DNA of 36,679 nt from Hyphomicrobiales bacterium (lineage in GTDB: Bacteria > Pseudomonadota > Alphaproteobacteria > Rhizobiales > Beijerinckiaceae). Numbering within the stretch: position 1 is the stretch's first letter; each line of letters opens with the position of its first letter. Below, piece by piece: positions 3,637 to 36,679 of the stretch. The notes under the pieces were generated by a model. It was not told the origin of the DNA. It was given only the letters and a program-made list of their open reading frames with translations, and searched no databases. Where the stretch lies: assembly GCA_019247795.1 (NCBI GenBank), contig JAFBAK010000148.1:1-36679 (forward strand). Reading direction: 5' to 3'. A program made the translations under genes and the position numbers.

Positions 3637-3656
3637 GCGCTTCGGTGAGCCCCTCA

Positions 3657-4631: not shown

Positions 4632-4675
4632 GTCGCGATCCCTTCGCTACTCTGCGGGGAAGGCCCAGCCCCGCA

Positions 4676-6163: not shown

Positions 6164-6200
6164 GGCACTGTGACCTGAACCGACTCAACTCAACGCGACA

Positions 6201-7478: not shown

Positions 7479-8242
7479 CAAGGAGCTCCGCCGCTGCCGA
7501 CAGTGCTGATCGTGGCCTTGTTCTTGCTGCTGTCGTAAACCGTCGCCGGATCCTGCCCCTGCCGCAGCTTCGTGATCTCGTTCGAACGTTTGACGATATC
7601 GATGCGCTCTTCGACATGGGGACGGACGAGATCGATCGGATCGGCGGTTTGGGCCGCGATGTTCTGCTGATAGGCGCAGCCGAAATTCCAATACTGCTCG
7701 TTCTCGATGCCTTCGCGCGTGCCCGCGCCCGAGAGATCCTTCGGCCAGCGGCCGCATGAATGGGGCACTCTCGCGGCAAGCTCCGCGAAGCTCAACCGGA
7801 TCGGCGCCGCCAGCATGGGATCCTCGACCATATACGGTTGCACCGAAAGCGGCACGTAATCGCGCGGGCCCGAAAGAGCGGCCCGGATCGCCTCGATGCC
7901 GCGCGCGTCCCCGACCGGGTCGGTGCTGCCGACCGGCACATAGGCCATCATCACGCCTTTGCCGCGCTGGCGGAACTCCTGGACGAAGGCGCGCAGATCC
8001 TCGCGCTGGCGGGGATCGAGAGGCCCTGAATTCGCGCCCACGAAAATATCGAGCGTGCGGTTCTTGTCCGTGATCACGATCGGGTGTCGGTCGCGATAAT
8101 CGGAAGGGTCACGCCCGGCATTGGTCACGATACGGTCAGCGCCGCAGGCGGAAAGTGCGATCGAGAGGGCTACGCCCGCGAGAAGAGCACGCGGCACGCG
8201 CTTCTCGCGATCTTGGCGTGAGGCGTGAACCTGAGGGGTCAT
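7478..8242 (-). CDS. cpaD: Tad pilus assembly lipoprotein CpaD
   Basis: A 254-residue predicted lipoprotein of the CpaD family, an outer-membrane or periplasmic partner of the CpaC secretin. A basic N terminus and hydrophobic stretch lead to a lipobox ending SAC, with Cys at residue 33. The family-like run DYRDRHPIVITD follows, then an alpha/beta domain resembling OmpA-type peptidoglycan-binding folds. The ATG at 8242 is preferred over an in-frame TTG at 8248, because GAGG precedes it by seven bases and overlaps the cpaC stop region. It couples directly to cpaE. Confidence 0.9.
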   Translation of the reverse strand: MTPQVHASRQDREKRVPRALLAGVALSIALSACGADRIVTNAGRDPSDYRDRHPIVITDKNRTLDIFVGANSGPLDPRQREDLRAFVQEFRQRGKGVMMAYVPVGSTDPVGDARGIEAIRAALSGPRDYVPLSVQPYMVEDPMLAAPIRLSFAELAARVPHSCGRWPKDLSGAGTREGIENEQYWNFGCAYQQNIAAQTADPIDLVRPHVEERIDIVKRSNEITKLRQGQDPATVYDSSKNKATISTVGSGGAP

Positions 8243-8251
8243 GCGCAATCC

Positions 8252-9745: not shown

Positions 9746-9767
9746 GTTCTTATGTTCCGGCTTTCGT

Positions 9768-10562
9768 TCAATTCCTGCCGCCCACGTAAGTCTGCACGCC
9801 GTAGCGAATGACTGAGAGTTGCGCGTCCTTGTTCGCCACCACCTCGGGGGCATTGGCGTCGGCGACACTGCGCAAGGAGAGAGTGAGGGTGCCCGAGCGC
9901 TGCGCAAGGGCGATGGTGTTCACCTCCCCCGGTCCGAGCTCGAGTGTCGCCGTCTCGCCGACCGCGACACGCTCGCCGTTCTTTTCCTCGATGTTGGGGC
10001 CGATCGCGAGAACGCGGATGTTCTGCAGCAGGGTCTCGCTGGCATAGACATCGCTGCCTTGCGATTGGGTGGCCCGCCAATCCTTGTAGATGTGGATCAC
10101 ATCCACATGATCGTTCGGGAGAATGAGCGTGCCGGCGCTGTTCGAGCCGCGCTGGTCGATGCTGATCGCAAGCGCCCTTTTGCCTTCCGGAAGGATGGCT
10201 GAAAGATAGCCGGCATCCGCCTTGATCAGCTTGTCCTTGCTCACCGGCTCGTTGGCAACGAAGGTCTCGCGAACGAGCGAACCGGAATTCTGCGTGACCG
10301 CGTCGGGAGCGTCCTTCTTCAGGATCATGCCCGGCGCGACGCCCTCGGCAGGCCAAGGCAACCATTTGAGATTGGCGGGGGTGAGCTTCGTGCCGACCGG
10401 CAGGTCGGCGGCGGCCACGAGCACTTCGCTGGCCGCGATCTTCTCAGGCTCGGCGGCGACCGGAACGGGCGGAGCGGGCTCGCGCCCTCCGCTCGCAAGA
10501 TAGGCAGCGGCCAATCCGGCCACCACCGCAACGCCAATGATGGCGATACGCGCTGGTTTCAT
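9768..10562 (-). CDS. cpaB: Tad pilus assembly protein CpaB/RcpC (SAF domain)
   Basis: A 264-residue protein with one N-terminal membrane segment (IAIIGVAVVAGLAAAYLASGG) and a periplasmic part. The SAF-like domain is read in VLVAAADLPVGTKLTPANLKW; the C-terminal half matches the RcpC/CpaB region (DHVDVIHIY, LGPGEVNTIALAQRSGTLTLSLRS). CpaB is thought to gate or stabilise the secretin. The ATG at 10562 gives the family-typical start MKPARIA; an in-frame GTG at 10586 is possible. It heads the cpaBCDEF-tadBC run, with a 317-bp gap to cpaA that probably contains a promoter. Confidence 0.92.
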   Translation of the reverse strand: MKPARIAIIGVAVVAGLAAAYLASGGREPAPPVPVAAEPEKIAASEVLVAAADLPVGTKLTPANLKWLPWPAEGVAPGMILKKDAPDAVTQNSGSLVRETFVANEPVSKDKLIKADAGYLSAILPEGKRALAISIDQRGSNSAGTLILPNDHVDVIHIYKDWRATQSQGSDVYASETLLQNIRVLAIGPNIEEKNGERVAVGETATLELGPGEVNTIALAQRSGTLTLSLRSVADANAPEVVANKDAQLSVIRYGVQTYVGGRN

Positions 10563-13966: not shown

Positions 13967-15133
13967 TCACGCGGGCATGCGCTTTTCTGCGAGCCTCGCC
14001 CAATATGAGACGCCCGCCGAGATCGCGGCGTCATTGAAGTCGTAGGCCGGATGATGCAACCCGGCCGTCTCGCCATTGCCGACAAGGATCATCGCGCCTG
14101 GACGTTCGAGCAGCATGTAGGAGAAATCCTCACCCCCCATGCTGGGCTCGATGTCGGTCTGCACGTGGTCTGCGCCCATGACATCCTTCGCGGCCTCCGC
14201 CGCGAAGCCGGTCTCGACCTCATGGTTGCGCGTCACCGGATAGCCACGGCGATAATCGACCTTGGCACGCGCCCCGAAGACGGCGGCCGATTGCTGCGCG
14301 ACGCTCGTAAGACGTGCCTGGATCAGATCTTGCACTTGAGGCTCGAGGGTGCGCACCGTTCCTCTCAGGGTGACGATCTGCGGAATGATGTTGAACGCAT
14401 CCCCGCCGCGCACGTAAGTCACCGAGACCACGCCGGACTTCAACGGATCGACGTTGCGCGACACGATGCTCTGCAGCGCCGTGATCATATGGGCTGCGAC
14501 GACGACCGTATCGATCCCTTCATAGGCCTTGGCCGCATGCGCGCCCCTTCCCTCGATCTCGATCTCGAAGCGATCGGCGGCGGCCAGCATGGGGCCGGGA
14601 CGCAGCGCGAAGTGCCCGGTCGGCAAACCCGGCATATTGTGCATCCCGTAGACCTCGCGGATGCCGAAGCGGTCGATCAACCCCTCCTTGACCATCAGCT
14701 CTCCGCCGGCGCCGCCTTCCTCGGCGGGTTGGAAAATGACGACCGCAGTGCCGTCGAAGTTGCGCGTCTCGCAAAGATATTTTGCGGCGCCGAGCAGCAT
14801 CGAGGTGTGACCATCATGGCCGCAGGCATGCATCCGGTTCGCGACCGTTGATTTATGCGCGATGTCGCCGATTTCCTGCAGCGGCAGGCAATCCATGTCG
14901 GCGCGCATGCCGATCACCTTGCCGCTTCCATTCTTCCTGCCGCGGATGACGCCGACCACGCCGGTCTTCGCGATGCCGGTCACGATCTCGTCGCAACCGA
15001 AGGCCTTGAGCTTCTCGGCCACGATGGCGGAGGTCCGCTTCTCCTCGTAACCGAGCTCGGGATGGGCGTGAATGTCCCGCCTCCAGGCGGCGACCTCATC
15101 GGAAAAAGCAGCGACGCGATTGATGACGGGCAT
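13967..15133 (-). CDS. M20D amidohydrolase (hippurate hydrolase/aminoacylase-like)
   Basis: A 388-residue cytosolic dinuclear metallo-amidohydrolase that would remove acyl groups from N-acyl amino acids or cut related amides. Visible motifs are RRDIHAHPELGYEE (17-31), the metal site RADMD (78-82), HACGHDGHTSMLLGAA (103-117; Cys104 and His106 are expected ligands), the Glu pair in FQPAEEGG (138-139) and GGEDFSYML near the C terminus. Length is typical. The ATG at 15133 is chosen; the same frame runs open to 15793 but overlaps the divergent binding-protein gene. It is divergent from the ABC importer across 351 bp, suggesting shared control and a peptide or acyl-peptide substrate. Confidence 0.92.
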   Translation of the reverse strand: MPVINRVAAFSDEVAAWRRDIHAHPELGYEEKRTSAIVAEKLKAFGCDEIVTGIAKTGVVGVIRGRKNGSGKVIGMRADMDCLPLQEIGDIAHKSTVANRMHACGHDGHTSMLLGAAKYLCETRNFDGTAVVIFQPAEEGGAGGELMVKEGLIDRFGIREVYGMHNMPGLPTGHFALRPGPMLAAADRFEIEIEGRGAHAAKAYEGIDTVVVAAHMITALQSIVSRNVDPLKSGVVSVTYVRGGDAFNIIPQIVTLRGTVRTLEPQVQDLIQARLTSVAQQSAAVFGARAKVDYRRGYPVTRNHEVETGFAAEAAKDVMGADHVQTDIEPSMGGEDFSYMLLERPGAMILVGNGETAGLHHPAYDFNDAAISAGVSYWARLAEKRMPA

Positions 15134-15335
15134 GGGTCTGGTACACTTTGTCTTGAGTTCACCCCGTGAGCCTATCCGAACGCGCTGGGCCGTCAGCGCA
15201 AGGCCACGAGTTTGCAAAAACCTCGATCGGGCCTTTTTCAGCCGAAATATCCCAGCGCTTGCGGCCCGACCAAGGCGAGCGGAGTTTCGCGCCACTCCTC
15301 GTCGAGCGCAAGAGCGGCGCGGGGCGAAAGTGCCG

Positions 15336-15361
15336 GGCCGCCAAATCGCCGGCTGGCGGCC
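15336..15361. repeat. Inverted repeat in the M20-importer divergent promoter region
   Basis: Perfect 8-bp arms GGCCGCCA and TGGCGGCC are separated by ten bases. It lies in the 351-bp region (15134-15484) between the M20 gene and the first binding-protein gene, about 125 bp before the latter. It could be an operator or a leader hairpin. The rest of this region holds no gene I can support. Confidence 0.45.
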
Positions 15362-15484
15362 GACGCCTTCAAAAACCGGCGCTGGACCAATCATTGTCGC
15401 TGCGCTTAGATGCCGCGGATTTGAACATCCCCTTTCCCGACGGGCCGTCACGGCCTCGTCGGGACGCCGAATGGAGTGAGCTCG

Positions 15485-17098
15485 ATGCACGGATGGTTGG
15501 TGAGAAAAATCGGGAAGCTCGCGCTTGCGGCCCTTGGCGCCGTGGCAATCATAAGCGGACCCGTGCCACAGGCGAACGCAAAGACCTTGCGCTTCGCCTT
15601 CCAGGGCGAATTGAAAGCCGTCGACCCTTACGCGATCAATGAGAGCTTCAGTCTGAGCGTCAATGCGGCGGTCTATGAAGGACTGATCCGGCGCGGCCAG
15701 GACATGAAGATCGAGCCCTGTCTCGCGACGAGCTGGGAGACGCTCGACCCGCTCCATTGGCGCTTTCATCTGCGCCATGGCGTCAAATTCCATGACGGGC
15801 AGGATTTCACTGCCGACGACGTGGTCTTCTCAGCCGACCGCGTGCATTCGGCCGGCTCCGACATCAAGAACCGCGTGCCCCTCGATGCGAAGGTCGTGAA
15901 GGTCGACGATTACACCGTCGACTTCATTCTCAAGACCCCCAATCCGCTCCTCATGAACGAGTGGGAATCCTGGGGTATTTTCTCGAAGAAATGGTCCGAG
16001 GAGCATGGCGCGACGGAAGCCACGGCCATGAACGCGACGACGCCGCCTTATGCGGCCTTGCACGCCAACGGCACCGGGCCCTTCATGCTGGTGAGCCATG
16101 AGCCGGGCGTGAAGACCGTCTGGAAGAAGAACCCCAATTGGTGGGACAAGCCGAAGCACAATCTCGACGAGGTGGTCTTCACGCCGATCCCGTCCAACGC
16201 TACGCGAGTGGCCGCCCTGCTCTCGGGCGAGATCGATTGGATGGATCCGGTGCCGCTTCCCGATCAGGCGCGCGTCAATGCCAATCCCGGAACGGAGGTC
16301 CTCGCGGGGCCGGAGATCCGCACCATCTTCCTCGGCTTCGACCAGATCAGGCCCGAGCTCGGCCATTCGAACGTGAAGGGCAAGAACCCGTTCAAGGACG
16401 TGCGGGTGCGCAAAGCCTTCTACCAAGCGATCGACGAGGAGGCGATCAAGACCAAGGTGATGCGTGGGCTCGCAACGCCGACAGCGCTCTTGATTGCGCC
16501 TTCGCTCTACTCCGAATCCAAGGATTTCAAGCGCATTCCCTTTGATCCGGAAGCATCGAAGAAGCTGCTCGCGGAGGCTGGATATCCGGATGGCTTCGAG
16601 GTGCAGATGAACTGCCCGAACGACCGCTACGTCAACGACGAAGCGATTTGTCAGGCCGTGGTCGGCATGTTGGCGCGCGTCGGCGTCAAGATCGACCTTC
16701 TCTCCGAGCCCAAATCGAAATTCTTTGCGCGGATCACCGCCGCAGGCGGTTATGATTCTTCGTTCTACCTGCTCGGTTGGACGCCTTCGACGCTCGAGAG
16801 CTACAACGTTTTCCAATATATCATCGGTTGCCGCGACGAGAAGGGCAATGGCGGCGGCAACAATGTCGGTGACTATTGCAATCCAAAAGTCGACCAGCTC
16901 GCCAAGGAGGCGCTGCAAGAGCCCGACCAGGAGAAGCGCGACGACATCTTCAAGCAGGCTTGGCAACTCTCCTTGTTCGACGATGTGGCTTACATCCCGC
17001 TTCACCAGCAGGCGCTCGCCTGGGGTGTCTCGAAGAAGACGCATGTCGTGCAACGCCCGGACAATTATTACATCTTTGCCTGGGTGAATATGGATTGA
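15485..17098 (+). CDS. ABC transporter substrate-binding protein, family 5 (copy 1)
   Basis: A 537-residue periplasmic binding protein for peptides or related solutes. The signal peptide runs to about residue 32 (QANA before KTLRFAFQGE). The SBP_bac_5 family is read from LATSWETLDPLHWRFHLRHGVKFHDG and FTADDVVFSADR, and from DVRVRKAFYQAID in the second lobe. GGAG lies eight bases before the ATG at 15485; an in-frame GTG at 15476 would add three residues. It is a near duplicate of the next gene. Binding-protein specificity in this family cannot be read from sequence, so a dipeptide substrate is only the default guess. Confidence 0.93.
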   Translation: MHGWLVRKIGKLALAALGAVAIISGPVPQANAKTLRFAFQGELKAVDPYAINESFSLSVNAAVYEGLIRRGQDMKIEPCLATSWETLDPLHWRFHLRHGVKFHDGQDFTADDVVFSADRVHSAGSDIKNRVPLDAKVVKVDDYTVDFILKTPNPLLMNEWESWGIFSKKWSEEHGATEATAMNATTPPYAALHANGTGPFMLVSHEPGVKTVWKKNPNWWDKPKHNLDEVVFTPIPSNATRVAALLSGEIDWMDPVPLPDQARVNANPGTEVLAGPEIRTIFLGFDQIRPELGHSNVKGKNPFKDVRVRKAFYQAIDEEAIKTKVMRGLATPTALLIAPSLYSESKDFKRIPFDPEASKKLLAEAGYPDGFEVQMNCPNDRYVNDEAICQAVVGMLARVGVKIDLLSEPKSKFFARITAAGGYDSSFYLLGWTPSTLESYNVFQYIIGCRDEKGNGGGNNVGDYCNPKVDQLAKEALQEPDQEKRDDIFKQAWQLSLFDDVAYIPLHQQALAWGVSKKTHVVQRPDNYYIFAWVNMD

Positions 17099-17110
17099 GG
17101 CTCGAACGGT

Positions 17111-17136
17111 GCGCCGCCTCGGAGGTGGGGCGGTGC
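17111..17136 (+). terminator. Hairpin after the first binding-protein gene
   Basis: A 10-bp stem (GCGCCGCCTC with GGGGCGGTGC, two G-U wobbles in RNA) and a 6-base loop begin 12 bases after the stop codon. No U-run follows, so a 3' stabiliser or attenuator that raises binding-protein mRNA over downstream genes is more likely than a true terminator. Confidence 0.5.
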
Positions 17137-17271
17137 AGGCCGGCCAGGAGAGTTGAGATACGGCCGCGCGTGAAGCTTGCCTCGCGACGCCTCGGCATGG
17201 ATCGCGTAGCGGAAGGCGGCGCGGTTCAGAAACGCAAAAAAGAAACGCTGAAAGCATCCGGGAGGCCGATA

Positions 17272-18918
17272 ATGCTGTTTGAAATGATGGCACGATGCGC
17301 GGCCTTGGTGTCGCGGCTTGGCTTGGCGTCGCGGCTTGCCATTGCGGTTGCCCTGGGCGCCGTCCTTGCGGGTGCGCCGCTCGTTCCAAGAGCCGAGGCG
17401 AAGACGCTTCGCTTCGCCTTCCAGGGTGAGCTCAAGGCGGTCGACCCTTACGCGTTGATGGAATCGTTCAGCCTCGCGATGGGAAGCGCGGTTTATGAAG
17501 GGCTTATCCGTCGCGGCCCCGACCTCAAGATCGAGCCCTGCCTGGCGACGAGCTGGGAGACGCTCGATCCGCTGCATTGGCGCTTCCATCTGCGCAAGGG
17601 GGTCAAATTCCATGAAGGGCAGGATTTCACCGCCGACGATGTCGTGTTCTCGGCACAGCGCCTCCACACCCAAGGTTCCGATCTCAAGAATCTCGTCGCG
17701 CCCGACACGAAGGTCGTGAAAATCGATGACTATACGGTCGACTTCATCCTGACCCACCCCGATCCCCTGCTCATGGCGCAATGGGAGAGTTGGGGCATTT
17801 TCTCGAAGAAATGGTCCGAGGAGCATGGCGCGACCGAGGCGACCGCGATGAATGCCACCACACCGCCATATGCGGCCTTGCATGCGAACGGCACCGGCCC
17901 GTTCATTTTGGTGAGCCACGAGCCCGGCGTGAAGACGGTTTGGAAGAAAAATCCCAATTGGTGGGACAAGCCCAAGCACAATCTCGACGAGGTGGTTTTC
18001 ACCCCGATTCCGTCGAATGCAACGCGTGTCGCGGCGCTTCTTTCAGGCGAAATCGACTGGATGGATCCGGTGCCGCTTCCCGATCAGGCGCGCGTCAACG
18101 CCAATCCGGGCACTCAAGTCCTCGCCGGGCCCGAGCTTCGCACCATCTTCCTCGGCTTCGACCAGATGCGGCCCGAGCTTGGCCATTCGAACGTGAAGGG
18201 CAAGAACCCGTTCAAGGATGTTCGCGTCCGGAAGGCTTTCTACCAGGCGATCGACGAGGAGGCGATCAAGACCAAGGTGATGCGCGGGCTCGCAACCCCG
18301 GCAGCGCTGATGATCGCCCCTTCGCTTTATTCCGAATCGAAGGATTTCAAGCGCATCCCCTTCGACCCCGAAGCCGCGAAGAAGCTGCTGGGGGAGGCCG
18401 GCTATCCGGACGGTTTCGAGGTTCAGCTCGATTGCCCGAATGACCGCTACGTCAACGACGAGGCGATCTGCCAGGCTGTGGTCGGCATGCTGGCGCGCAT
18501 CGGCGTCAAGGTCGATCTCGTGGCCGAGCCGAAATCCAAATTCTTCGCGCGCATTCTCGCCGTCGGCGGCTACGACACTTCCTTCTATCTTCTCGGTTGG
18601 ACGCCCGCGACGTACGAGAGCTACAACGTTTTCCAATACAATATTCAGTGTCGGGACGAGAAAGGGAACGGCGGCCACAACAACATCGGCGGCTATTGCA
18701 ATCCCAAAGTCGACGAACTCGCCAATGCGGCCTTGCAGGAGACGGACCAGGAGAAGCGCGACGACATCTTCAAGCAGGCTTGGCAGATCTCGCTTTTCGA
18801 CGATGTCGGCTTCATTCCGCTGCATCAACAGGCGCTGGCCTGGGGCGTGTCGAAGAAAGTGCACGTCATCCAGCGCTCGGACAATTTCTACGTCTTCGCC
18901 TGGGTGAACATGGATTGA
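17272..18918 (+). CDS. ABC transporter substrate-binding protein, family 5 (copy 2)
   Basis: A 548-residue periplasmic binding protein, paralogous to the preceding gene. The signal peptide runs to about residue 43 (PRAEA before KTLRFAFQGE). From there to the C terminus it aligns without visible gaps to copy 1; the core around the WWDKPKHNLDEVVFTPIPS segment is essentially identical in protein but differs at many synonymous sites. GGAGG stands six bases before the ATG at 17272; the frame extends upstream to 16876 inside copy 1 and that reading is rejected. Differences cluster in the signal peptide and parts of the C-terminal half (for example IIGCRDEKGNGGGNN against NIQCRDEKGNGGHNN), which may alter ligand range. 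Confidence 0.93.
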   Translation: MLFEMMARCAALVSRLGLASRLAIAVALGAVLAGAPLVPRAEAKTLRFAFQGELKAVDPYALMESFSLAMGSAVYEGLIRRGPDLKIEPCLATSWETLDPLHWRFHLRKGVKFHEGQDFTADDVVFSAQRLHTQGSDLKNLVAPDTKVVKIDDYTVDFILTHPDPLLMAQWESWGIFSKKWSEEHGATEATAMNATTPPYAALHANGTGPFILVSHEPGVKTVWKKNPNWWDKPKHNLDEVVFTPIPSNATRVAALLSGEIDWMDPVPLPDQARVNANPGTQVLAGPELRTIFLGFDQMRPELGHSNVKGKNPFKDVRVRKAFYQAIDEEAIKTKVMRGLATPAALMIAPSLYSESKDFKRIPFDPEAAKKLLGEAGYPDGFEVQLDCPNDRYVNDEAICQAVVGMLARIGVKVDLVAEPKSKFFARILAVGGYDTSFYLLGWTPATYESYNVFQYNIQCRDEKGNGGHNNIGGYCNPKVDELANAALQETDQEKRDDIFKQAWQISLFDDVGFIPLHQQALAWGVSKKVHVIQRSDNFYVFAWVNMD

Positions 18919-18978
18919 GATCGATGCTGCCGGACAAGATCCAGGCCTTGAGCTTCCGGGCACGGCGGCTTTTCGATC

Positions 18979-19005
18979 CCGCTGAAAGCCGGATCGGCTT
19001 CGCGG
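18979..19005 (+). repeat. Imperfect hairpin before the permease genes
   Basis: CCGC and GCGG, with inner GAA/GCC pairing to GGC/TTC around a short loop and two bulged bases, form an imperfect stem in the 109-bp gap between copy 2 and the first permease gene. It may stabilise binding-protein mRNA. The evidence is by-eye pairing only. Confidence 0.35.
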
Positions 19006-19027
19006 CGAGCCAAGGCGATTCTTTCAG

Positions 19028-20008
<981 letters not shown>

Positions 20009-20014
20009 CTCAAG

Positions 20015-20971
20015 ATGAGCGAGATCAGCGTCGAGCTGCCGAAATCCGAGCCGGCCTCGAGGTCTTTCCTCGGGCGCCTCAAGGACAGCGACCTCCTGGC
20101 AAGCTTCCTTTCATCGAAGGTCACGGTGGTTGCGGGCGCCTTGACGCTGATCTTTTTTCTCGCCGCCGTCTTCGCGCCGCTCATCGCGCCGACCAATCCC
20201 TTCGATCCGGCGAGCAACTTCCTCATAGATTCACTCAATCCTCCCCGCTTCGTGACGGGAGGCGATGCGCGCTTCCTCCTCGGCACGGATGATCAGGGGC
20301 GTGATCTCTGGTCGGCAATCCTCTACGGGCTGCGCGTTTCGCTCCTCATCGGCGTTTTCGGGGTGCTCCTTGGCGGCGCGATCGGCATAACGCTCGGGCT
20401 CATCGCGGGTTACGCGGGGGGGCGCATCGATTCGATCATCATGCGGATCGCGGATGTGCAGCTCACCTTTCCGGCGATCCTGATCGCGCTCCTCGTGGAC
20501 GGAGTCGTGCAGGCGTTGCTCAAGGGGCAGAACCGAGAGCAGACGGCCTTCGGCATTCTCGTGATCTCGATCGGCCTCTCCTTCTGGGTGCAATATGCAC
20601 GCACCGTGCGTGGCTCGACGCTCGTCGAAAAAAACCGCGATTACGTGCAAGCGGCGCGCCTCATCGGGTTGTCGCCGGCGCGCATCCTGATGCGCCACAT
20701 CCTGCCGAACGTCATGGGGCCGGTGCTCGTGATCGCGACCATCAACCTCGCGCTTGCCATCATCACCGAGGCGACGCTCTCGTTTCTCGGAGTAGGCCTG
20801 CCGCCGACCCAGCCTTCGCTCGGCACCTTGATCCGCATCGGCCAGAATTTCCTGTTCTCGGGCGAATGGTGGATCGTGACCTTCCCGAGCATCACGCTTG
20901 CCGCGCTCGTGCTCGCCGTCAATCTGCTCGGCGATTGGTTGCGCGACGCGCTGAACCCGAGGCTGAAATGA
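20015..20971 (+). CDS. dppC: Peptide-type ABC transporter permease (DppC family)
   Basis: A 318-residue inner-membrane permease, partner of the preceding DppB-type subunit. The N-terminal cytoplasmic stretch is followed by a membrane segment, FLLGTDDQGRDLWSAILYGLR (the family's GTDDQGRD signature) and five further spans. The EAA loop is DYVQAARLIGLSPARILMRHILPN. EATLSFLGVGLPPTQPSLG is typical of DppC/OppC. Its stop overlaps the next start (ATGA), indicating translational coupling to the first ATPase gene. Confidence 0.93.
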   Translation: MSEISVELPKSEPASRSFLGRLKDSDLLASFLSSKVTVVAGALTLIFFLAAVFAPLIAPTNPFDPASNFLIDSLNPPRFVTGGDARFLLGTDDQGRDLWSAILYGLRVSLLIGVFGVLLGGAIGITLGLIAGYAGGRIDSIIMRIADVQLTFPAILIALLVDGVVQALLKGQNREQTAFGILVISIGLSFWVQYARTVRGSTLVEKNRDYVQAARLIGLSPARILMRHILPNVMGPVLVIATINLALAIITEATLSFLGVGLPPTQPSLGTLIRIGQNFLFSGEWWIVTFPSITLAALVLAVNLLGDWLRDALNPRLK

Positions 20972-21965
20972 AGGCGCCGCTCCTCTCGGTCAAGGATCTG
21001 CGCGTCGAGTTCATCACGCGGCGCGGGCCGCTCACCGCGCTCGACGGGATCTCCTTCGATCTCGCACCCGGTGAAATCCTCGGAGTCGTCGGCGAATCGG
21101 GTGCCGGCAAATCGCTCACCGGGCTCGCGATCATCGGCCTTCTCGATCCGCCGGGCCGGATCGCCGGAGGCGAGATCAGGCTCAACGGCGAGCGCATCGA
21201 CAACCTGGCGCCCGAGGCGATGCGCAAAATCCGCGGACGGCGCATCGGCATGATCTTCCAGGACCCGCTCACGAGCCTCAACCCGCTTTTGCGCATCGGC
21301 GATCAGCTCGTCGAAACGATCCTCACCCACACATCCCTCACGCCGAAGGCGGCGCGCGCGCGCGCCATCTCCCTTCTCACGGAGGTCGGCATTCCGGCGC
21401 CGGAAAAACGCATCGATGGCTATCCGCATGAATTCTCCGGCGGCATGCGCCAGCGCGTGGTGATCGCGCTCGCGCTTTGCGCCGAGCCTGCCCTCGTCAT
21501 CGCGGATGAGCCGACGACGGCGCTCGACGTTTCCGTGCAGGCGCAGATCATCGCGGTGCTGAAGCGGCTCGCGCGCGAGCACCACGCCGCCGTGATTCTC
21601 ATCACGCATGACATGGGCGTGATCGCCGAGACGGCGGATCGGGTCGCCGTCATGTATGCCGGGCGCATTGCCGAGATCGGTCGCGTCGAGGAGGTCGTGC
21701 GCGATCCGCTCCACCCTTACGCCAAGGGCTTGATGGCCGCGATTCCGACGCTTGAAGGGCGCGCGGCGCGCCTTGCCCAGATTCCCGGCGCCATGCCGCG
21801 CCTTTCCGCCATTCCGCCGGGCTGCGCCTTCAACCCGCGCTGTCCGAATGTCTTCGATCGCTGCCGGATCGAGCGGCCGCCACCCTTGCCGATCGGCACA
21901 AGGCGCGCGGCGTGCTGGCTATACGACCGAGGTGAGGTGACCCCTCCCGCGAGAGAGACGGTGTC

Positions 21966-21969
<4 letters not shown>
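20968..21969 (+). CDS. dppD: Peptide-type ABC transporter ATPase (DppD family)
   Basis: A 333-residue cytoplasmic ATPase subunit. Walker A GESGAGKS is at 42-49, the signature SGGMRQR at about 157-163 and Walker B LVIADEPTT at about 176-184, followed by an H-loop ITHDMG. The C-terminal oligopeptide-ABC extension with its cysteine cluster (GCAFNPRCPNVFDRC) is present; in related proteins this can hold an iron-sulfur cluster. The ATG overlaps the dppC stop by four bases; upstream in-frame codons lie inside dppC and are rejected. It pairs with the next gene. Confidence 0.93.
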
Positions 21970-23057
<1,088 letters not shown>

Positions 23058-25132: not shown

Positions 25133-25563
25133 GGGAGTTCGACCCCTTGCGTTGCGGCCTCGGTCAGGAGCGAAAAAAGCAGCAAAGATGTGGTCATCCT
25201 GAATCAAATCTGGACTTTACGCTTCAAATTGAAAGCACCATATCGGGAGAGTTCCCGCATCGCGGTGTCCCGCGCGTGAGCGGCCTTATGCGAGCATCCT
25301 TCTTCCAGCGATCATAATACTTCCGAGGAGCCGTTTCAGGGCTCCCGTTCATGGGAGGTTAATCGTTGCGCCCGCAAAGAATTGGCGGCTAGGCGTGATG
25401 GGCGGCCGCTGAGCAGCGCGAGTGCTCGGGCAAGCCCCCGATCATGCGGCTCACGCTCTCACAACCAGCGTCGAAGCGCGGGCAAATCGAGGCGCCGTGC
25501 CGGACTGAATTGCGAAAAAGGGGCTGGCGCGAGGGCAACGGCGCCGAGCCTGAAGGGGCGACG
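25133..25563. promoter_or_regulatory. Divergent intergenic region, cyclase and synthetase
   Basis: No gene is supported in these 431 bp. A hairpin with perfect arms GGAGCC and GGCTCC (7-base loop) is at 25327-25345. A strong ribosome-binding site AAGGGG at 25553-25558 precedes the synthetase start. Promoters for both genes must lie here, but no box was clear enough to assign. Confidence 0.4.
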
Positions 25564-28500
25564 ATGAACGCGATGGATCGGCGCATCCTGGCCGAAGCTG
25601 CCGTGCTGGACGGGCCGCGGCCGTCGGTGCTGCGCGGAGAAATGCGCCCCGATCTCGTGAAGGACGAGGTCCTCTCCGAGATTTTCACTCTTGCCGCCGA
25701 AGCGCATGCCCAGAAGCCCGCTCTTGTCGGCCCTGGCGGCACGTTCACTTATGCGGAGGTCTTGGAGCGCGCTCGCGCGATCGGGGCAGCGCTCACGGCA
25801 CGCGGCATCGGTGCCGGCCATGTCGTCGGCCTATGGATGGCGCGCGGCCCTGCGCTTCTGGTCGCCCAGATCGGCATAACCATGAGCGGCGCCGCGTGGT
25901 TGCCCTTCGATACGGAGGCGCCGGTCGAGCGCATCGCGGAGTGCCTTGCCGATTGCGGCGCCAAGGCGCTCTTGACGGGAGCTTCGTTGGCGGAACGGGC
26001 GAAAGCCGCAGGCAGTCCCGTTTTCGTCGACGCCTTGCTCATCGCGGAGAAGGCGCCGGCGTTGCCGAAAGGGCGTCCTTCCGGCCTCACGCCGCACCAT
26101 CCTGCCTATGTGATCTACACGTCCGGCTCGACCGGAAAGCCAAAGGGCATCATCGTCACGCATCACAATATCTGCCACTTCCTGCGCTCGGCCAACGAGG
26201 TCTACGGCATCCGCGCGGATGATGTGGTGTTTCAAGGCGCATCTCTCGCCTTCGACTTGTCGATGGAAGAGATCTGGATCCCCTATCTCGTCGGCGCCAC
26301 GCTCTTCGTCGCCGACGCTCGCCTTTTGGGGGAGAGCGACCAGCTCGCCGATGTGCTCGAGGCGAACCGCATCACCGTCATCGATACGGTCCCCACCTTG
26401 CTCACCATGATCGGCCGTGACGTGGCGAGCCTGCGACTCATCCTTCTCGGGGGCGAAGCTTTGCCGCCCGCGCTTGCGGCGCGCTGGGCGAAACCTCACC
26501 GGCGGGTCTTCAACACGTATGGCCCGACGGAAGCGACCGTGGTCGCCACCGTCGACGAGGTGCACCCTGGCGAACCCATCACCATCGGCAGGCCCATCCC
26601 CAATTATTCCTGCTGGATCGCCGGCCCCGATCTGTCGCTGGTCGCACAAGGCCAAGAGGGCGAGCTTTTGATCGGCGGCCCAGGCATCACACGCGGCTAT
26701 CTGCAGCGCCCCGAGCTCACCCAGCAGAAATTCATCCCTAACCCCTTTCGGTCCGACGGTTCCGATCCGGTGCTCTACCGTTCCGGAGATGCGGTCAGCC
26801 TCGATGCACAAGGGCGAATCCTGTTTCACGGCCGCATCGACGATCAGGTGAAGATCCGCGGTTTTCGCGTCGAGCTCGGTGAGATCGAAAGCCGGCTCGC
26901 CGAGGAGCATGGCGTGGCGCAGGCGGCCGTGGTGCTTCGCCAGGATGCCGGCGTCGAGAAGCTCGTGGCCTTCCTCGTGGCGCGAACGGGTGCGAGCCCT
27001 GCGCCCAGGGATTTGCGCGTGGCGCTCGCGCGGCAATTGCCGGCCTACATGGTGCCCGCCCGCTTCGAGCGTGTCGCGACGCTTCCGCGCCTCGCTTCAG
27101 GCAAGATCGACCGAGGCGCGTTGAAGAAGCTCGAGCTCGCACCGCAAGGGGCGAGCGGCGAGCAGGACCCTCCGCGCAACGCGACCGAGCAAGCCCTGCT
27201 CGAGGCCGCACGGCGCGCCTTGGGCGCCGAGCTCGTGCCGCTCGAGGCTGATTTTTTCGCCGAGCTCGGCGGACATTCGCTGATCGCGGCGCGTTTCGTC
27301 TCTTTCGTGCGCGAGACCCCGGCGCTTGCCAGGATCCGGCTTCAGGACGTCTACGAGGCGCGTACGCTGCGGGCCATTGCCGCGAGGCTCGACGCGCAAA
27401 TTCCGCCCGAGAGCGAGCCGATCGACCTTTCCTTCGCGCCACCTCCCTTGCTGCGGCGCTTCCTCTGCGGTCTCGCGCAAGCCGCGGTGATGCCGGTTTT
27501 TCTTGGTCTCGTCACCGCCCAGTGGCTCGGCGTCTATATCGCCTACATCCTGCTGTCGCCGGAAACCGGCGGCTTCTTCGAGGATCTTGCGACGGTCGTG
27601 ACCGTCTACGTGGCGATCAACGTCGCGACGTTCTTCATCGGCATTGGAGGCAAATGGCTGGTGCTCGGGCGCGCGAAGCCCGGCCGCTATCCGCTTTGGG
27701 GCCTCTACTACTTCCGCTACTGGCTGGCGGCGCAATTTGGACGCTTGACGCCCGGCGCTCTCCTGCAGGGCTCGCCGGTGATGAATTTTCACCTGCGCAT
27801 GATGGGCGCCAAGGTCGGCCAGGGCGCCTATATCGGCGAGGTCATCTGCGGCGCGCCCGATCTCGTGACGATCGGCCCGCGCGCCTCGATCGGGCGCATC
27901 ACCATCGCCAACGCGACCGTCATCGGTAATGAATTCGTTCTCGGCCATGTCGAGATCGGCGAGGATGCGTATATCGGCTCCTCTTGCGTCATCGGGCACG
28001 ACGTCGTCATCGACGAGGGCGCCGAGCTTGCCGACCTCACCTCGATCTCGCCCGGCCAGCATGTCGGCAAAGGCGAAATATGGGACGGCTCTCCGGGCTG
28101 CAAGGTCGGCAATGTGGATGCCGTCGCGCTTCCGGCCCATGCGGAAGCCTCGCAAAGCTGGCGCGCCCTTACCGCCGCCTTCCATGTCCTCATGCTGCTC
28201 GCCATCCCGCCGCTGGGCTTGATGCCCGTGCTGCCGGCCTTCTACCTTTTTGATCAGCTCGCCGACCTCGCAGGCTCGGTCTCCTCGATCAACTACCTCT
28301 ATCTGACCCCGATCGTCGCCTGGCCGACCGCGATGGCGCTCATCGCGCTCACGGTTCTGTTGATCGCCGCGATCCGCTGGATCGTGCTGCCGAGAGTTCG
28401 CCCGGGCGTGCACTCGATCTACTCCATGTTCTACTGGCGCATGTGGCTCGTCGGATTGTGCACGGCCGTGACGCTCGGCACGCTCAACTCACTCTACGCG

Positions 28501-29571
28501 ACGTTCTACATGCGCTGGTGGTACCGTCTCATGGGCGCAAGGATCGGGCGCGGCGCGGAAATCTCCACCAGTCTCGGGGGACGATACGACCTCGTCGAGA
28601 TCGGCGAGAATTGCTTCATCGCCGACGAGGTTATGCTGGGCGAAGAGGATGTGCGACGCGGCTACATGATGCTCGCGCCCGTGAAGATCGCGGCGCGCAC
28701 CTTCGTCGGCAACTCGGCGGTCGTCGCGCCGGGAACCGAGATCGCGAAAGGCGCGCTGATCGGCGTGAAATCGAAACCGCCCGGCAAAGGCGTGGGCGAG
28801 AACGAGATCTGGTTCGGCTCCCCGCCCCTCAAGTTTCCGGTGCGGCAGACCTTCGATGTCGGTGACAATTGGACCTTCGAACCCTCCTTCGCGCGTAAGC
28901 TCGGCCGCGCCGTGTTCGAGGCCTTCTGTGTTTCCTTGCCAACCGCCCTTTACATCACCCTTGGCGTGTTCGCGGCCGAATATCTCGCGCCGGCGGTGCT
29001 CGACGCCGATTTTGACGCGCTCATTCCGCAATTCCTCGCAGCCGGCGTCCTCATCTCGGTGATGATGATGCTTGTCGTGTGCGCGCTCAAATGGCTGCTG
29101 ATGGGCGTCTACAAGCCGATGATGCGCCCCATGTGGTCGTGGTTCGCGCTACGCTCGGAGGCGATCGCGGTTGCCTACTCCACCATGGCGAGCCGCGTGC
29201 TTCTCGACCATCTGCACGGCACGCCGATGCTCCCCTGGTGCATGCGCCTCTTCGGGGCCAAGATCGGCGAGGGCACCTATTGGGCGACGACCGACATCAC
29301 CGAATTCGATTGCATCGACGTCGGCGATTTTTGCGCCATCAACGACAACTCCGCCTTGCAGACGCATCTCTACGAAGATCGCCTGATGAAGATCGGACGC
29401 ATCAGGCTCGGCAGGGGCGTGACCGTGGGCGCCGGAAGCACCGTGCTCTACGACACGCGCCTCGAGGATCATGTGCGCCTCGGTCCGCTCACCGTGGTGA
29501 TGAAGGGCGAAGGCATCCCGGCCAACTCCGCCTGGGGCGGCGCGCCGGCCCAGCCGGCGACTTTGCGGTGA
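25564..29571 (+). CDS. Pls/PosA-type membrane-anchored single-module NRPS
   Basis: A 1335-residue synthetase. An adenylation domain (about 45-525) carries YTSGSTGKPKG (185-195), FDLSMEEIW (230-238), NTYGPTE (317-323), YRSGD (405-409) and the catalytic Lys in ASGKIDR (Lys514). A carrier domain has its phosphopantetheine Ser572 in LGGHSL. No condensation HHxxxDG or thioesterase is present. Instead three similar units follow, each with about two membrane segments, an aromatic run (YYFRYWLA, FYWRMWLV, WFALRSEAIAV) and a RLMGAKIG-like hexapeptide left-handed-helix block (about 709-850, 950-1090, 1188-1330). This is the A-T-membrane/C1-C2-C3 layout of Streptomyces epsilon-poly-lysine synthetase and its Pls/PosA relatives. 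By analogy it activates one amino acid and chains it or hands it to an acceptor at the membrane. AAGGGG precedes ATG 25564; an upstream in-frame ATG at 25444 is weaker. The product is unknown. Confidence 0.9.
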   Translation: MNAMDRRILAEAAVLDGPRPSVLRGEMRPDLVKDEVLSEIFTLAAEAHAQKPALVGPGGTFTYAEVLERARAIGAALTARGIGAGHVVGLWMARGPALLVAQIGITMSGAAWLPFDTEAPVERIAECLADCGAKALLTGASLAERAKAAGSPVFVDALLIAEKAPALPKGRPSGLTPHHPAYVIYTSGSTGKPKGIIVTHHNICHFLRSANEVYGIRADDVVFQGASLAFDLSMEEIWIPYLVGATLFVADARLLGESDQLADVLEANRITVIDTVPTLLTMIGRDVASLRLILLGGEALPPALAARWAKPHRRVFNTYGPTEATVVATVDEVHPGEPITIGRPIPNYSCWIAGPDLSLVAQGQEGELLIGGPGITRGYLQRPELTQQKFIPNPFRSDGSDPVLYRSGDAVSLDAQGRILFHGRIDDQVKIRGFRVELGEIESRLAEEHGVAQAAVVLRQDAGVEKLVAFLVARTGASPAPRDLRVALARQLPAYMVPARFERVATLPRLASGKIDRGALKKLELAPQGASGEQDPPRNATEQALLEAARRALGAELVPLEADFFAELGGHSLIAARFVSFVRETPALARIRLQDVYEARTLRAIAARLDAQIPPESEPIDLSFAPPPLLRRFLCGLAQAAVMPVFLGLVTAQWLGVYIAYILLSPETGGFFEDLATVVTVYVAINVATFFIGIGGKWLVLGRAKPGRYPLWGLYYFRYWLAAQFGRLTPGALLQGSPVMNFHLRMMGAKVGQGAYIGEVICGAPDLVTIGPRASIGRITIANATVIGNEFVLGHVEIGEDAYIGSSCVIGHDVVIDEGAELADLTSISPGQHVGKGEIWDGSPGCKVGNVDAVALPAHAEASQSWRALTAAFHVLMLLAIPPLGLMPVLPAFYLFDQLADLAGSVSSINYLYLTPIVAWPTAMALIALTVLLIAAIRWIVLPRVRPGVHSIYSMFYWRMWLVGLCTAVTLGTLNSLYATFYMRWWYRLMGARIGRGAEISTSLGGRYDLVEIGENCFIADEVMLGEEDVRRGYMMLAPVKIAARTFVGNSAVVAPGTEIAKGALIGVKSKPPGKGVGENEIWFGSPPLKFPVRQTFDVGDNWTFEPSFARKLGRAVFEAFCVSLPTALYITLGVFAAEYLAPAVLDADFDALIPQFLAAGVLISVMMMLVVCALKWLLMGVYKPMMRPMWSWFALRSEAIAVAYSTMASRVLLDHLHGTPMLPWCMRLFGAKIGEGTYWATTDITEFDCIDVGDFCAINDNSALQTHLYEDRLMKIGRIRLGRGVTVGAGSTVLYDTRLEDHVRLGPLTVVMKGEGIPANSAWGGAPAQPATLR

Positions 29572-29641
29572 CATTGCACTTAATTCTATCAGTGTCGGTA
29601 GCAAGCTGGGGCCGGCGAGGAAGAGAATTAAGTGCACTGTC
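29570..29641. repeat. REP-like inverted repeat at the synthetase-lyase junction
   Basis: GCACTTAATTCT (29576-29587) and AGAATTAAGTGC (29624-29635) are perfect 12-bp arms. Outward pairing continues to about 18 bp with one mismatch (29570-29587 with 29624-29641), with a 36-bp spacer. The synthetase stop is at the left edge and the lyase stop lies within the right arm, so the repeat encodes the last residues of the lyase. The arm sequence resembles palindromic elements seen beside IS200-like transposase genes, from memory. It may act as a two-way terminator. Confidence 0.7.
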
Positions 29642-30992
29642 CCCGTAATTCTTCCCGAGCAACGACTCGATCGACCATCCCGCCACACAGGCCGAGATAA
29701 TTTTCGGGCTCGAGAAGCTTCGCCAAGGCCGCGCGATCGAGATGGGCCGAGATCTCGCGATTTTCGGCGAGGAGATCGAGGAACGGGCGGCCGCTCGCGA
29801 TGACCTCGCGGCAGATGTCGTAGACGAGATCATGCGCGCGCTGCCGGCCGAGCTTTGGGCCAAGCCCCATCATCACGGCTTCCGACATGATGAGCCCGCC
29901 GGTGGCGTCGAGGTTTTGGCGCATGCGCTTATCGTCGACGACGAGGCCACCGAGGAGGAAGCGTGCCTGCGCCAAGGCGCCGGCCGAAAGACAGAAAATC
30001 TCCGGCAAGGCGATCCACTCGATCTCCCATGGTCCCGTCGAGCGCTCGTGGTCCTCGACCATGGCGTCGAGCAAGGAGGCCACGTGCTGGCGCACCACCG
30101 AGATGCAGGCGTAAATGTAGGCGCATGAGATCGGGTTGCGCTTCTGCGGCATGGTGCTCGAGGATCCACGGCCTTCGGCGAAGGGCTCATAGGCCTCGGC
30201 GACCTCCGTCTGCATCATGAGCTTGATGTCGGTCGCGATCTTGCCGAGCGTGCCCGTGACGAGGCCGAGGAAGCAGCCGACCTCCGCGATATTGTCGCGC
30301 ATCGTGTGCCAGGCGATCTCCGGCTGCCCGAGCCCGAGCTCCGCCATGAGAGCTGCCTGGACTTCAATCCCGTCGCGGCCAAGCGAGGAGAGATTGCCGG
30401 CGGCCCCGCCGAACTCGCCGACGAGCAGGCGCGGGCGAAGTTCCTTCAAGCGATCTTGATGTCGCCGCACGCCCGAAAGCAGGACGGCGGCCTTGTAGCC
30501 GAAGGTGATCGGGACCGCATGCTGGAGATTGCTGCGCGCCACCATCGGCGTATCGCGATAGCGGCGCGCGAGATCGGTAAGCGAGCTCGCGATGGCCTCG
30601 AGATCCTCTTCCACGAGCTCGAGCGCCGCCCTGATTTGCATCACGGTTGCCGTGTCGGTGATATCTTGCGTCGTCGCGCCCCAATGGCACCATTCGCCGA
30701 GCCCGTCCCGCGAGGCGGCGACGAGCTGTTGCACGACGCCGAGGACCGGGTAGCCGATGCGCTCGGTCTGTGTCTTCAGCTTCGCCATGTCGATCGCCTC
30801 GAGGCGGCAATGGCGGCAAATCTCGTCGGCCGCCTCCTGGGGAATGATGTCGAGGCGCGCCTCGACGCGCGCCAGCGCGGCTTCGATCTCGAGATAGTGC
30901 TCCACCCGCCTTTCGTCCGAGAACACGGCGCGCATTTTCGCGGTGCTGAAGATGTCGCCGAAAATGCTGGAATCGATGATGGTCGCCGCCAT
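29628..30992 (-). CDS. Fumarase/aspartase superfamily lyase (PcaB/PurB-like)
   Basis: A 454-residue, probably homotetrameric cytosolic lyase or cycloisomerase. Signatures are HWGATTQD (103-110), LQHAVPITFG around residue 156-165, and the mobile catalytic loop GSSSTMPQKRNP (276-287) with the conserved Ser. The segment ARSNLQHAVP, lacking the His of classical GRTH motifs, and the C-terminal third resemble 3-carboxymuconate cycloisomerase (PcaB) more than true adenylosuccinate lyase. The loop has Gln where PurB/PcaB usually have His. GAGAAAG precedes the ATG. It is divergent from the TRAP transporter, so its substrate may be what the transporter imports; this is inference. Confidence 0.82.
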   Translation of the reverse strand: MAATIIDSSIFGDIFSTAKMRAVFSDERRVEHYLEIEAALARVEARLDIIPQEAADEICRHCRLEAIDMAKLKTQTERIGYPVLGVVQQLVAASRDGLGEWCHWGATTQDITDTATVMQIRAALELVEEDLEAIASSLTDLARRYRDTPMVARSNLQHAVPITFGYKAAVLLSGVRRHQDRLKELRPRLLVGEFGGAAGNLSSLGRDGIEVQAALMAELGLGQPEIAWHTMRDNIAEVGCFLGLVTGTLGKIATDIKLMMQTEVAEAYEPFAEGRGSSSTMPQKRNPISCAYIYACISVVRQHVASLLDAMVEDHERSTGPWEIEWIALPEIFCLSAGALAQARFLLGGLVVDDKRMRQNLDATGGLIMSEAVMMGLGPKLGRQRAHDLVYDICREVIASGRPFLDLLAENREISAHLDRAALAKLLEPENYLGLCGGMVDRVVAREELRGQCT

Positions 30993-35214: not shown

Positions 35215-35486
35215 ACAAGCCTAGCGAAGTGTCACCCCCGGTGAATGGGGGTTCAGAGTCGGCCAGCAGAAGATGGATACCCTTCCCCTCACCATCCTTC
35301 GGATCGCTCGGCCGGGTATGACACCGGCCGCACCCTCATCCGCCTCGGCTCCGTCTCAGCATACCTCTCCCGCAAGCGGAAGAAGGACGAGGCGCAGCTC
35401 TCCGCATCTTGTGAACCGGCTTTGCTTGACCATCCGATGTGGCTGGCACAATCTCCCCGCCCCGCAAGCAGGAGATGGTTCCCGAG

Positions 35487-36679
35487 ATGGTGAAGCAGGC
35501 GATCCTCGACGCGATCAACACCTATGCGCCGGAGCTCATCGAGATCAGGCGGGACATCCACAAGCATCCCGAGACGCGTTTCGAGGAGGTGCGCACCGCG
35601 GGCCTGGTTGCCGAGAAATTGCGCGGCTGGGGCATCGAGGTCGCGGAAAAGATCGGCAAGACTGGCGTCGTCGGCACGCTCAAAGGCAACCGCCCGGGCC
35701 AGCGTGCGATCGCGCTCAGGGCCGACATGGACGCGCTCTTCATCGAGGAAGCGAACGACTTCCCTCATGCCTCGGTCGTGCCCGGCAAGATGCACGCCTG
35801 TGGCCATGACGGGCACACGACCATGCTGCTCGGCGCCGCGCGCTATCTCGCGGGCACGCGCGATTTCGCCGGCACCGTGCATTTCATTTTCCAGCCGGCC
35901 GAGGAGGCAGGCACGGGCGCGCCCGCGATGATCGCGGATGGCCTGTTCGAGCGCTTTCCCTGCGACAGCGTCTATGGGCTCCACAACTCGCCAGGTCTTC
36001 CCGTGGGAAAGTTCGCGACGCGCGAAGGGCCCATCCTCGCGGGATCCGATTTCTGGGGCGTCACCTTCACCGGCACGGGCGGGCATGGCGGCTCCTCGCC
36101 GCATCTGGCGACCGACGCGACCGTGGTGCTCGGCCATTTTCTCCTCGGCGTGCAGACGATCCTGCCGCGCAATCTCCACCCGACGGAAAGCGCGGCGCTC
36201 AGCGTCGGGCATGTGAGCGGCGGCGCCTACAATTCGCCGAACGTCATGCCCTCGAAGATCGTGGTGCGCGGCACGGCCCGATACTTCCGCAAAGAGGCGC
36301 AAGCCATGATCAGGCGACGCCTCGAGGAGCTCTCGACGACGCTCGCGGCCGCGCATGGTTGCGAGGCGCGGCTCGAATACGAGCCGCTCTGTCCGCCCAC
36401 CGTGAATTGGGGAGAGAAAATGCCGGTCGCGCGCGCCGCCGCCGCCGCGGTCGTCGGGGACGATAGTGTGGGCGATGTCCAGCTCAGCACGGGCGGAGAG
36501 GATTTCGCCTACATGCTGCAAAAAAAGCCGGGCGTTTTCATGCGCATCGGCAACGGCGCGAATCTCAAGGGCGAAGTCCACCAGGTTCATACGCCGCGCT
36601 ACGACTTCAACGACGACATCCTGGCGCTCGGCGCCGCTTATTGGGCAAGCCTCGTGCAACAGGAATTGGGCTGGGCGTC
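35487..36679 (+). CDS. M20D amidohydrolase, partial at window end
   Basis: The frame is open for 397 codons to the window edge, so the C terminus may be incomplete by a few residues. Motifs match the M20D family: IRRDIHKHPETRFEE (20-34), RADMD (78-82), HACGHDGHTTMLLGAA (103-118), FQPAEEAGTGAP and GGEDFAYML. It resembles the enzyme at 13967-15133 but is not a close duplicate. It would cut N-acyl amino acids or related amides. ATG 35487 is preferred; ATG 35475 lies directly against the AGGAG and is too close. Its place after dctPQM suggests a shared catabolic role. Confidence 0.9.
   Translation, partial: MVKQAILDAINTYAPELIEIRRDIHKHPETRFEEVRTAGLVAEKLRGWGIEVAEKIGKTGVVGTLKGNRPGQRAIALRADMDALFIEEANDFPHASVVPGKMHACGHDGHTTMLLGAARYLAGTRDFAGTVHFIFQPAEEAGTGAPAMIADGLFERFPCDSVYGLHNSPGLPVGKFATREGPILAGSDFWGVTFTGTGGHGGSSPHLATDATVVLGHFLLGVQTILPRNLHPTESAALSVGHVSGGAYNSPNVMPSKIVVRGTARYFRKEAQAMIRRRLEELSTTLAAAHGCEARLEYEPLCPPTVNWGEKMPVARAAAAAVVGDDSVGDVQLSTGGEDFAYMLQKKPGVFMRIGNGANLKGEVHQVHTPRYDFNDDILALGAAYWASLVQQELGWA

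Follow-up and report, generated by a model that had tools for sequence, protein, structure and literature searches.

We analysed a 36,679-nucleotide stretch of DNA from a Hyphomicrobiales bacterium of the family Beijerinckiaceae (contig JAFBAK010000148.1 of assembly GCA_019247795.1), hereafter the window, which carries a gene of the Pls/PosA synthetase family, referred to below as pls. The open reading frame spans 25444-29571 (+), or 1375 amino acids counted from its first ATG. A Shine-Dalgarno-like AAGGGG, judged by eye, lies just 5' of the ATG at 25564 and none lies by the ATG at 25444, so that the start at 25564, giving 1335 amino acids, appears the better one. The gene and the features that it encodes are the following (A, adenylation; T, carrier; TM, transmembrane; C1 to C3, the three repeats of the terminal domain):

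25564..29571 (+), Pls/PosA-family gene, A-T-(TM pair + left-handed beta-helix)x3, 1335 amino acids, from the open reading frame, profile matches and hydropathy
25672..27126 (+), adenylation domain, residues about 37-521 (TIGR01733, PF00501, PF13193)
26254..27105 (+), ten pocket residues D231 L232 E235 D274 L294 G296 T318 V326 V327 K514, an alignment-mapped code
27190..27390 (+), carrier domain, residues 543-609 (PF00550)
27277-27279 (+), phosphopantetheine serine S572 in the LGGHSL motif of the carrier domain
27475..29550 (+), Pls/PosA terminal (polymerisation) domain, residues 638-1329 (TIGR02353)
27460..27645 (+), predicted membrane helix pair 1, residues 633-651 and 676-694 (hydropathy; helices in the model)
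27757..28119 (+), predicted beta-helix of repeat C1, left-handed, residues about 732-852 (model; VIA-align Z about 15)
28186..28389 (+), predicted membrane helix pair 2, residues 875-893 and 924-942 (hydropathy; model)
28594..28836 (+), predicted beta-helix of repeat C2, residues about 1011-1091 (strand pattern in the model; handedness by analogy with C1)
28912..29088 (+), predicted membrane helix pair 3, residues 1117-1135 and 1157-1175 (hydropathy; model)
29314..29538 (+), predicted beta-helix of repeat C3, residues about 1251-1325, which includes H1268 (model; handedness by analogy with C1)
29365-29367 (+), H1268, sole histidine in C1-C3 that is invariant (19-member comparison)

The domain order, the motifs and membership of the Pls/PosA family are confirmed. 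Among NCBIfam models, TIGR01733 (amino-acid adenylation) scored 397.6 bits (cut-off 317.4) and TIGR02353 (Pls/PosA terminal domain) 562.6 bits (cut-off 423.1), the latter over model positions 2-695 of 695, a full-length match that is far beyond chance. Pfam placed PF00550 on the carrier domain at 26.5 bits (cut-off 20.8). Five Pfam families matched the protein at E <= 0.001. They include AMP-binding (PF00501), AMP-binding_C (PF13193), PP-binding (PF00550) and Hexapep; condensation, thioesterase and reductase families are absent from the five. The core motifs of the A domain and the carrier serine are all intact; D231, the aspartate expected to hold the alpha-amine, and K514, the equivalent of Lys517, are present, and S572 is invariant across 19 divergent family members. 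An earlier note on this DNA had proposed adenylation and carrier domains joined to three membrane/beta-helix units, with condensation, thioesterase and reductase domains lacking. The profiles, hydropathy and structural model bear this out: the C-terminal half falls within the Pls terminal-domain family above its cut-off, and the kept A and T motifs suggest that neither domain is inactive. The gene is the sole copy above the TIGR02353 cut-off in the 4.95-Mb, 431-contig source genome, where the phosphopantetheinyl-transferase family PF01648 has two matches.

Hydropathy delineates six TM-like segments that form three pairs (residues 633-694, 875-942 and 1117-1175). An AlphaFold2 model of residues 525-1335, the T and C-terminal part, was built from a 32-row alignment (mean pLDDT 87.2, pTM 0.88) and shows a pattern of helix pair, strand, helices and beta-helix occurring three times. 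Its first beta-helix (model residues 208-328) aligned with hexapeptide acetyltransferases at a VIA-align Z of about 15; the top nine rows had an rmsd of 1.7-3.0 over 96-121 residues, with coverage mainly at model residues 180-331. A viral structure library gave one match at E <= 0.001, a phage acetyltransferase. No solved structure spanning the whole terminal domain was found among the 50 Foldseek PDB matches listed, whose query-normalised TM was at most 0.16, a negative that by itself rules nothing out. The fold is not new: for PosA, the delta-poly-L-ornithine synthetase of Acinetobacter baumannii (PMC10522769; PDB 8G95-8G98), Patel and Gulick had already predicted this threefold repeat. Over the C1-C3 regions, membrane-helix stretches left out, the 19 divergent members share six invariant polar residues in C3 (E1199, T1220, D1255, Q1266, H1268, E1316), three in C2 and one in C1. 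The H1268 column of a 115-row set holds histidine in 114 rows and a gap in one.

The specificity code of the A domain is DLEDLGTVVK. Among PDB entries, the A core matches the A domain of PosA best (341 bits), and this alignment pairs PosA D217, M218, E221, H260, N280, T304, V312 and S313 (numbered as in PMC10522769, with a chain offset of two) with D231, L232, E235, D274, L294, T318, V326 and V327. The same columns in the A. baumannii homologue L142 (L numbers denote compared loci) read DMEHNGTVSK, which is the published PosA code and supports the mapping. Three residues that hold ornithine in PosA and were mutated in that work, D217, E221 and T304, are conserved as D231, E235 and T318. L232 occupies the position of the chain-length gate M218, whose replacement by alanine raised kcat/KM for lysine nearly tenfold (PMC10522769). 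The PosA pocket is nevertheless not matched as a whole: the D, E and T are kept, whereas M218 is replaced by L, H260 by D, N280 by L and S313 by V. This leaves an extra acid, D274, beside the kept amine-binding acid and threonine. Nor is this the Ala-gate (DAES-type) pocket of Pls, as L232 and D274 stand there instead, although the closing GTVVK is shared with the three Streptomyces/Kitasatospora members that carry DAESIGTVVK. It also differs from the DFEC-type pocket (DFECLSAVTK) of the Streptomyces member L148, which adjoins a diaminobutyrate transaminase gene (dat).

The earlier note likened the gene to the epsilon-poly-lysine synthetase of Streptomyces. Family and layout are indeed shared, but identity and trees both point to PosA, rather than Streptomyces Pls, as the nearest characterised relative. 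With L142 of A. baumannii VB958 as the identity reference for PosA, the A domain is 46.7% and the C-terminal part 37.4% identical, against 35.6-38.1% and 27.9-28.7% for the three DAESIGTVVK members. We built a 59-row quick tree and a 23-row careful mixture-model tree, both midpoint-rooted; the characterised S. albulus Pls itself stands outside them. The DLE[DS]-type sequences form one clade (100* in the 59-row tree, 100/100* in the 23-row tree), apart from the clade of Streptomyces Pls-type rows. The sister of the DLE[DS] clade is L142 (100* and 100/100*), and a Sphingomonas DMEHNGTVTK row branches next (98* and 98/97*). As drawn, the DMEHN rows are paraphyletic to the DLE[DS] clade, which suggests that the DLED pocket arose from one of PosA type. 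The 59-row tree came with a long-branch warning; the 23-row tree, in which seven rows have an unusual letter make-up, gave the same result with no long end branches flagged. In the 23-row tree the source genus also joins Bosea, Methylobacterium and Microvirga, with weak support (81/86). The C-terminal parts of Azospirillum members (58-61%) are mostly closer to the source protein than are those of its own family. Horizontal transfer from Azospirillum was considered and not upheld, the base of the clade being unresolved in the 59-row tree. The closest named record is the Hyphomicrobiales metagenome-assembled genome CP_BM_ER_52 (L062), at 94%.

The gene is no rarity among relatives. Of 60 genomes searched, 28 had a TIGR02353 match at E <= 1e-30, namely the source genome, 3/3 of the same genus, 21/32 of the same family and 3/24 from other families of the order; within the source genus and family, 24/35 genomes carry a member. 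An even draw across the class gave 9/289 genomes at E <= 1e-60; these nine include the source genome and three of its family. The family is thus widespread in the source genus and family and rare class-wide. Nineteen of the 21 same-family matches have a DLED pocket, one has DFEALGTVTK (L037) and one is truncated. In a 103-row set picked by similarity to the source protein, four rows are truncated at the pocket and 96 of the 99 readable ones carry DLE[DS][ILV]G[TS]VVK; three differ. Four clade members (L074, L079, L084, L108) have DLES rather than DLED. L055, whose A and C-terminal parts were not found in one frame, and L058, which lies at a contig end without its A domain, were left out of the code and neighbourhood counts. 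L034, L036 and L057 were dropped from the 103-row set and the neighbourhood count as apparent duplicates of L062, L110 and L112, and other duplicates may remain. Homologues of this clade were obtained from Methylobacterium, Bosea, Beijerinckia, Methylocella, Azospirillum, Magnetospirillum and Rhizobium, several of them plant-associated. The earlier note had held that few products are known in this group; we found no experimental product for an alphaproteobacterial member in the open-licence literature, among the matches listed, but the gene itself is widespread in the family and already catalogued.

Altogether, we consider it very likely that pls encodes a membrane-bound synthetase that works on its own, belongs to the Pls/PosA cationic homopoly-amino-acid (non-alpha poly-amino acid, 'NAPAA') family and has a short, isopeptide-linked cationic product. 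By analogy with PosA, the A domain would adenylate a basic diamino acid, with E235 and T318 holding the side-chain amine and D231 the alpha-amine, and the activated acid would be loaded onto the carrier serine S572. Residues would then be coupled iteratively, carboxylate to side-chain amine, by the three-unit membrane domain, and the resulting short cationic homopolymer would be released at or across the inner membrane. For the condensation itself we infer C3, which holds the invariant H1268, as the likeliest site. Several observations weigh against this picture. The C3 share of the invariant polar residues, 6/10, is marginal (binomial p 0.056), and the TIGR02353 scores of the source protein (562.6 bits) and a Rhizobium member (557.6) are lower than those of the A. 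baumannii homologue (725.2) and a Streptomyces member (676.8). In the pocket, the changes of S313 to V327 and H260 to D274 affect positions of PosA, one of which, S313, when lost, lowered ornithine activation 183-fold (PMC10522769). Finally, the E239/D278 pair also belongs to the majority arginine pattern, so the substrate may not be ornithine (PMC12283262).

The gate residue and the phylogeny make L-ornithine the first choice of monomer, at about an even chance. Lysine comes second and is on balance unlikely; arginine, diaminobutyrate or another monomer rank below it. Ornithine and lysine are primary metabolites. For diaminobutyrate, dat (TIGR00709) and ectB (TIGR02407) matched only below cut-off in the source genome (14 control genomes had dat above cut-off in one and ectB in none), and no diaminobutyrate supply gene adjoins pls among the window genes scanned. 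For beta-lysine, the EpmB model (TIGR03821) served as a stand-in for a lysine 2,3-aminomutase; its single hit fell below the cut-off and lay on a different contig, away from pls, which does not decide the matter. Reading the substrate from gene context was rejected as uninformative: the neighbours are housekeeping or transport genes, and within the genus none next to pls could be recognised as supplying an amino acid.

The same machinery could instead use arginine or a guanidino acid, with which no ordinary side-chain isopeptide polymer is possible. The source pocket DLEDLGTVVK can be set beside the arginine-domain tendency D[AV]ED[IVL]GA[VI][TD]K, of which E239 and D278, then I/V/L299 and G301, form part (PMC12283262), and a Bdellovibrionales relative has modest L-arginine activity (PMC10522769). 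However, the source protein has T318 and not Ala322, and E239/D278 pairs occur in codes for Arg, Lys and Orn domains, among them DGEDHGTVVK for Lys and DMEDVGSVDK for Orn/Lys (PMC12283262). The DLES of L074, L079, L084 and L108 is nearer to the lysine-type DAESIGTVVK. Guanidines are also poor acyl acceptors. We regard an arginine-type monomer as improbable.

The neighbourhood of the gene differs from that of the Streptomyces enzyme. All four loci of the source genus (the window, L032, L033 and L034, the last apparently on the same contig as L062) share the order cyclase (-), pls (+), lyase (-) and TRAP transporter. The lyase of the window is:

29628-30992 (-), PcaB/PurB-like lyase, downstream neighbour of pls (TIGR02426)

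It scores 365.3 against TIGR02426 (3-carboxy-cis,cis-muconate cycloisomerase; cut-off 355.75), with the other listed models below their cut-offs, and adjoins the TRAP transporter, an arrangement conserved in the genus. The setting of the epsilon-poly-lysine synthetase includes a peptidase gene (PMC8117764). An M1 metallopeptidase gene adjoins two of the three DAESIGTVVK members (L150 and L152, the third record being without annotation), whereas the gene downstream of pls in the window is the opposite-strand lyase and no polymer-degrading peptidase operon of the Pls type is seen there. We take the peptidase beside the epsilon-poly-lysine synthetase to be of the same family as the M1 metallopeptidase of the DAESIGTVVK loci.

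We compared a further 53 loci, most of them from Hyphomicrobiales, that had no less than 3 kb of upstream and 2.5 kb of downstream sequence, and assigned groups from record titles and kinship. Eighteen have fabI and/or gpm upstream together with aroC downstream, 22 the upstream genes only, 6 aroC only and 7 neither. Fumarate hydratase follows pls in 11 of 13 Azospirillum-type loci, and a phosphopantetheinyl-transferase gene adjoins pls in Rhizobium L143 and L153, the family member L048 and Sphingomonas L146. No operon partner kept across the whole clade was seen in the loci compared. PosA is alike in this, having no obvious cotranscribed partner, as in its domain order, TIGR02353 match and D/E/T pocket (PMC10522769). 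Like posA, pls would seem to serve a function of one gene passed on vertically, and it does not resemble an antibiotic gene cluster. A more tentative extension, which we hold possible but doubtful, is that the DLE[DS]-type alphaproteobacterial synthetases make a cationic homopolymer new to nature, built from a new monomer or consisting of ornithine with a novel chain length or linkage. It would be an envelope or stress polymer conserved in the lineage and not an antibiotic, and many Hyphomicrobiales would have inherited its gene vertically next to fabI/gpm and aroC.

The earlier note had left the choice between a poly-amino acid and a surface amino-acylation system, in which no polymer is released and activated amino acids are passed to a surface lipid or polysaccharide, changing envelope charge. 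The terminal domain is predicted to be membrane-embedded with acyltransferase-like beta-helices, and in many relatives the gene lies among housekeeping genes, both of which would suit such a transfer. In L104, moreover, pls is preceded by a two-component system and followed by a lysylphosphatidylglycerol-synthase gene, and a two-component system of this type adjoins pls in Rhizobium L143 and L153 as well. Yet the lysylphosphatidylglycerol synthase occurs at one locus only among those searched, leaving L104 as a weak contextual hint, while PosA, of the same layout, yields a homopolymer in vitro (PMC10522769) and Pls is said to synthesise and excrete one (PMC8117764). No acceptor-binding feature was identified, though no search aimed at one was made. 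We consider surface transfer quite unlikely. That pls is an inactive or decaying relic, for which only the absence of a reported alphaproteobacterial product in the literature searched could speak, is hardly credible given the open frame, the intact core motifs, the pocket pattern kept in 96/99 readable rows (of a set picked by similarity) and its retention in 3/3 same-genus relatives searched.

Not only the family but also near versions of this enzyme have been catalogued before. A NAPAA cluster with the code DLedLgTVvK was described in Bosea sp., and such a cluster, though perhaps not always with that code, is reported for each of the eight complete genomes of the genus (PMC10508160); five of the seven Bosea rows readable here carry the source code and two carry DLEDIGSVVK. 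Non-alpha poly-amino-acid clusters were reported in 'almost all' Methylobacterium genomes (PMC8561711). Proteins of both genera fall in the source clade, but the source genus has its own neighbourhood, cyclase-pls-lyase-TRAP. In a similarity network, members from Archaea, Rhizobia and Methylobacterium that read 'D L E D I G T V T/V/I K' were picked out as bearing a unique signature (PMC10522769); their pocket equals that of the source protein except for I/L at one position. Because the Bosea code, the Methylobacterium clusters and the unique-signature group are already in print, this is a known kind of enzyme. The same paper urges study of uncharacterised family members (PMC10522769). Identifying the product would extend cationic homopolymer chemistry or confirm ornithine, and would tell whether such polymers serve the producing cell.

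Two further observations concern other members of the clade. In three of the four DLES loci, a conserved protein of 210-235 amino acids is encoded directly 3' of pls; it was not found in L108:

L074:8218-8922 (+), L079:8230-8859 (+) and L084:8277-8912 (+), 210-235 amino-acid protein with a HELAH motif, downstream of pls

HELAH is a zinc-peptidase-like motif. The protein has no Pfam match to E 1e-5, and those of L074 and L079 have no NCBIfam match to E 1. It could be a polymer-cleaving enzyme, like the peptidase beside Streptomyces pls; a search of the source genome, run without a positive control, gave no match to it. In addition, a divergent two-component system adjoins pls in three rhizobial loci (L104:1513-11537, L143:558-7783 and L153). 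Between L104 and the Rhizobium loci, its response regulator is 66% and its histidine kinase about 50% identical. Together with the lysylphosphatidylglycerol-synthase gene after pls in L104, this system hints that pls may be regulated together with envelope charge.

The remaining features of the window lie on either side of pls:

13967-15793 (-) and 35430-36677 (+), M20 amidohydrolase genes flanking the pls region, TIGR01891 above cut-off
15476-23057 (+), oligopeptide-type ABC importer: two family-5 solute-binding genes, then two permease and two ATPase genes
2656-9907 (-), Tad/Flp pilus cluster: secretin (BON and pilus N-terminal domain), CpaE-like AAA protein, T2SSE ATPase and two T2SSF proteins

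We saw no evidence in the window that the M20 amidohydrolases act on the product of the synthetase.

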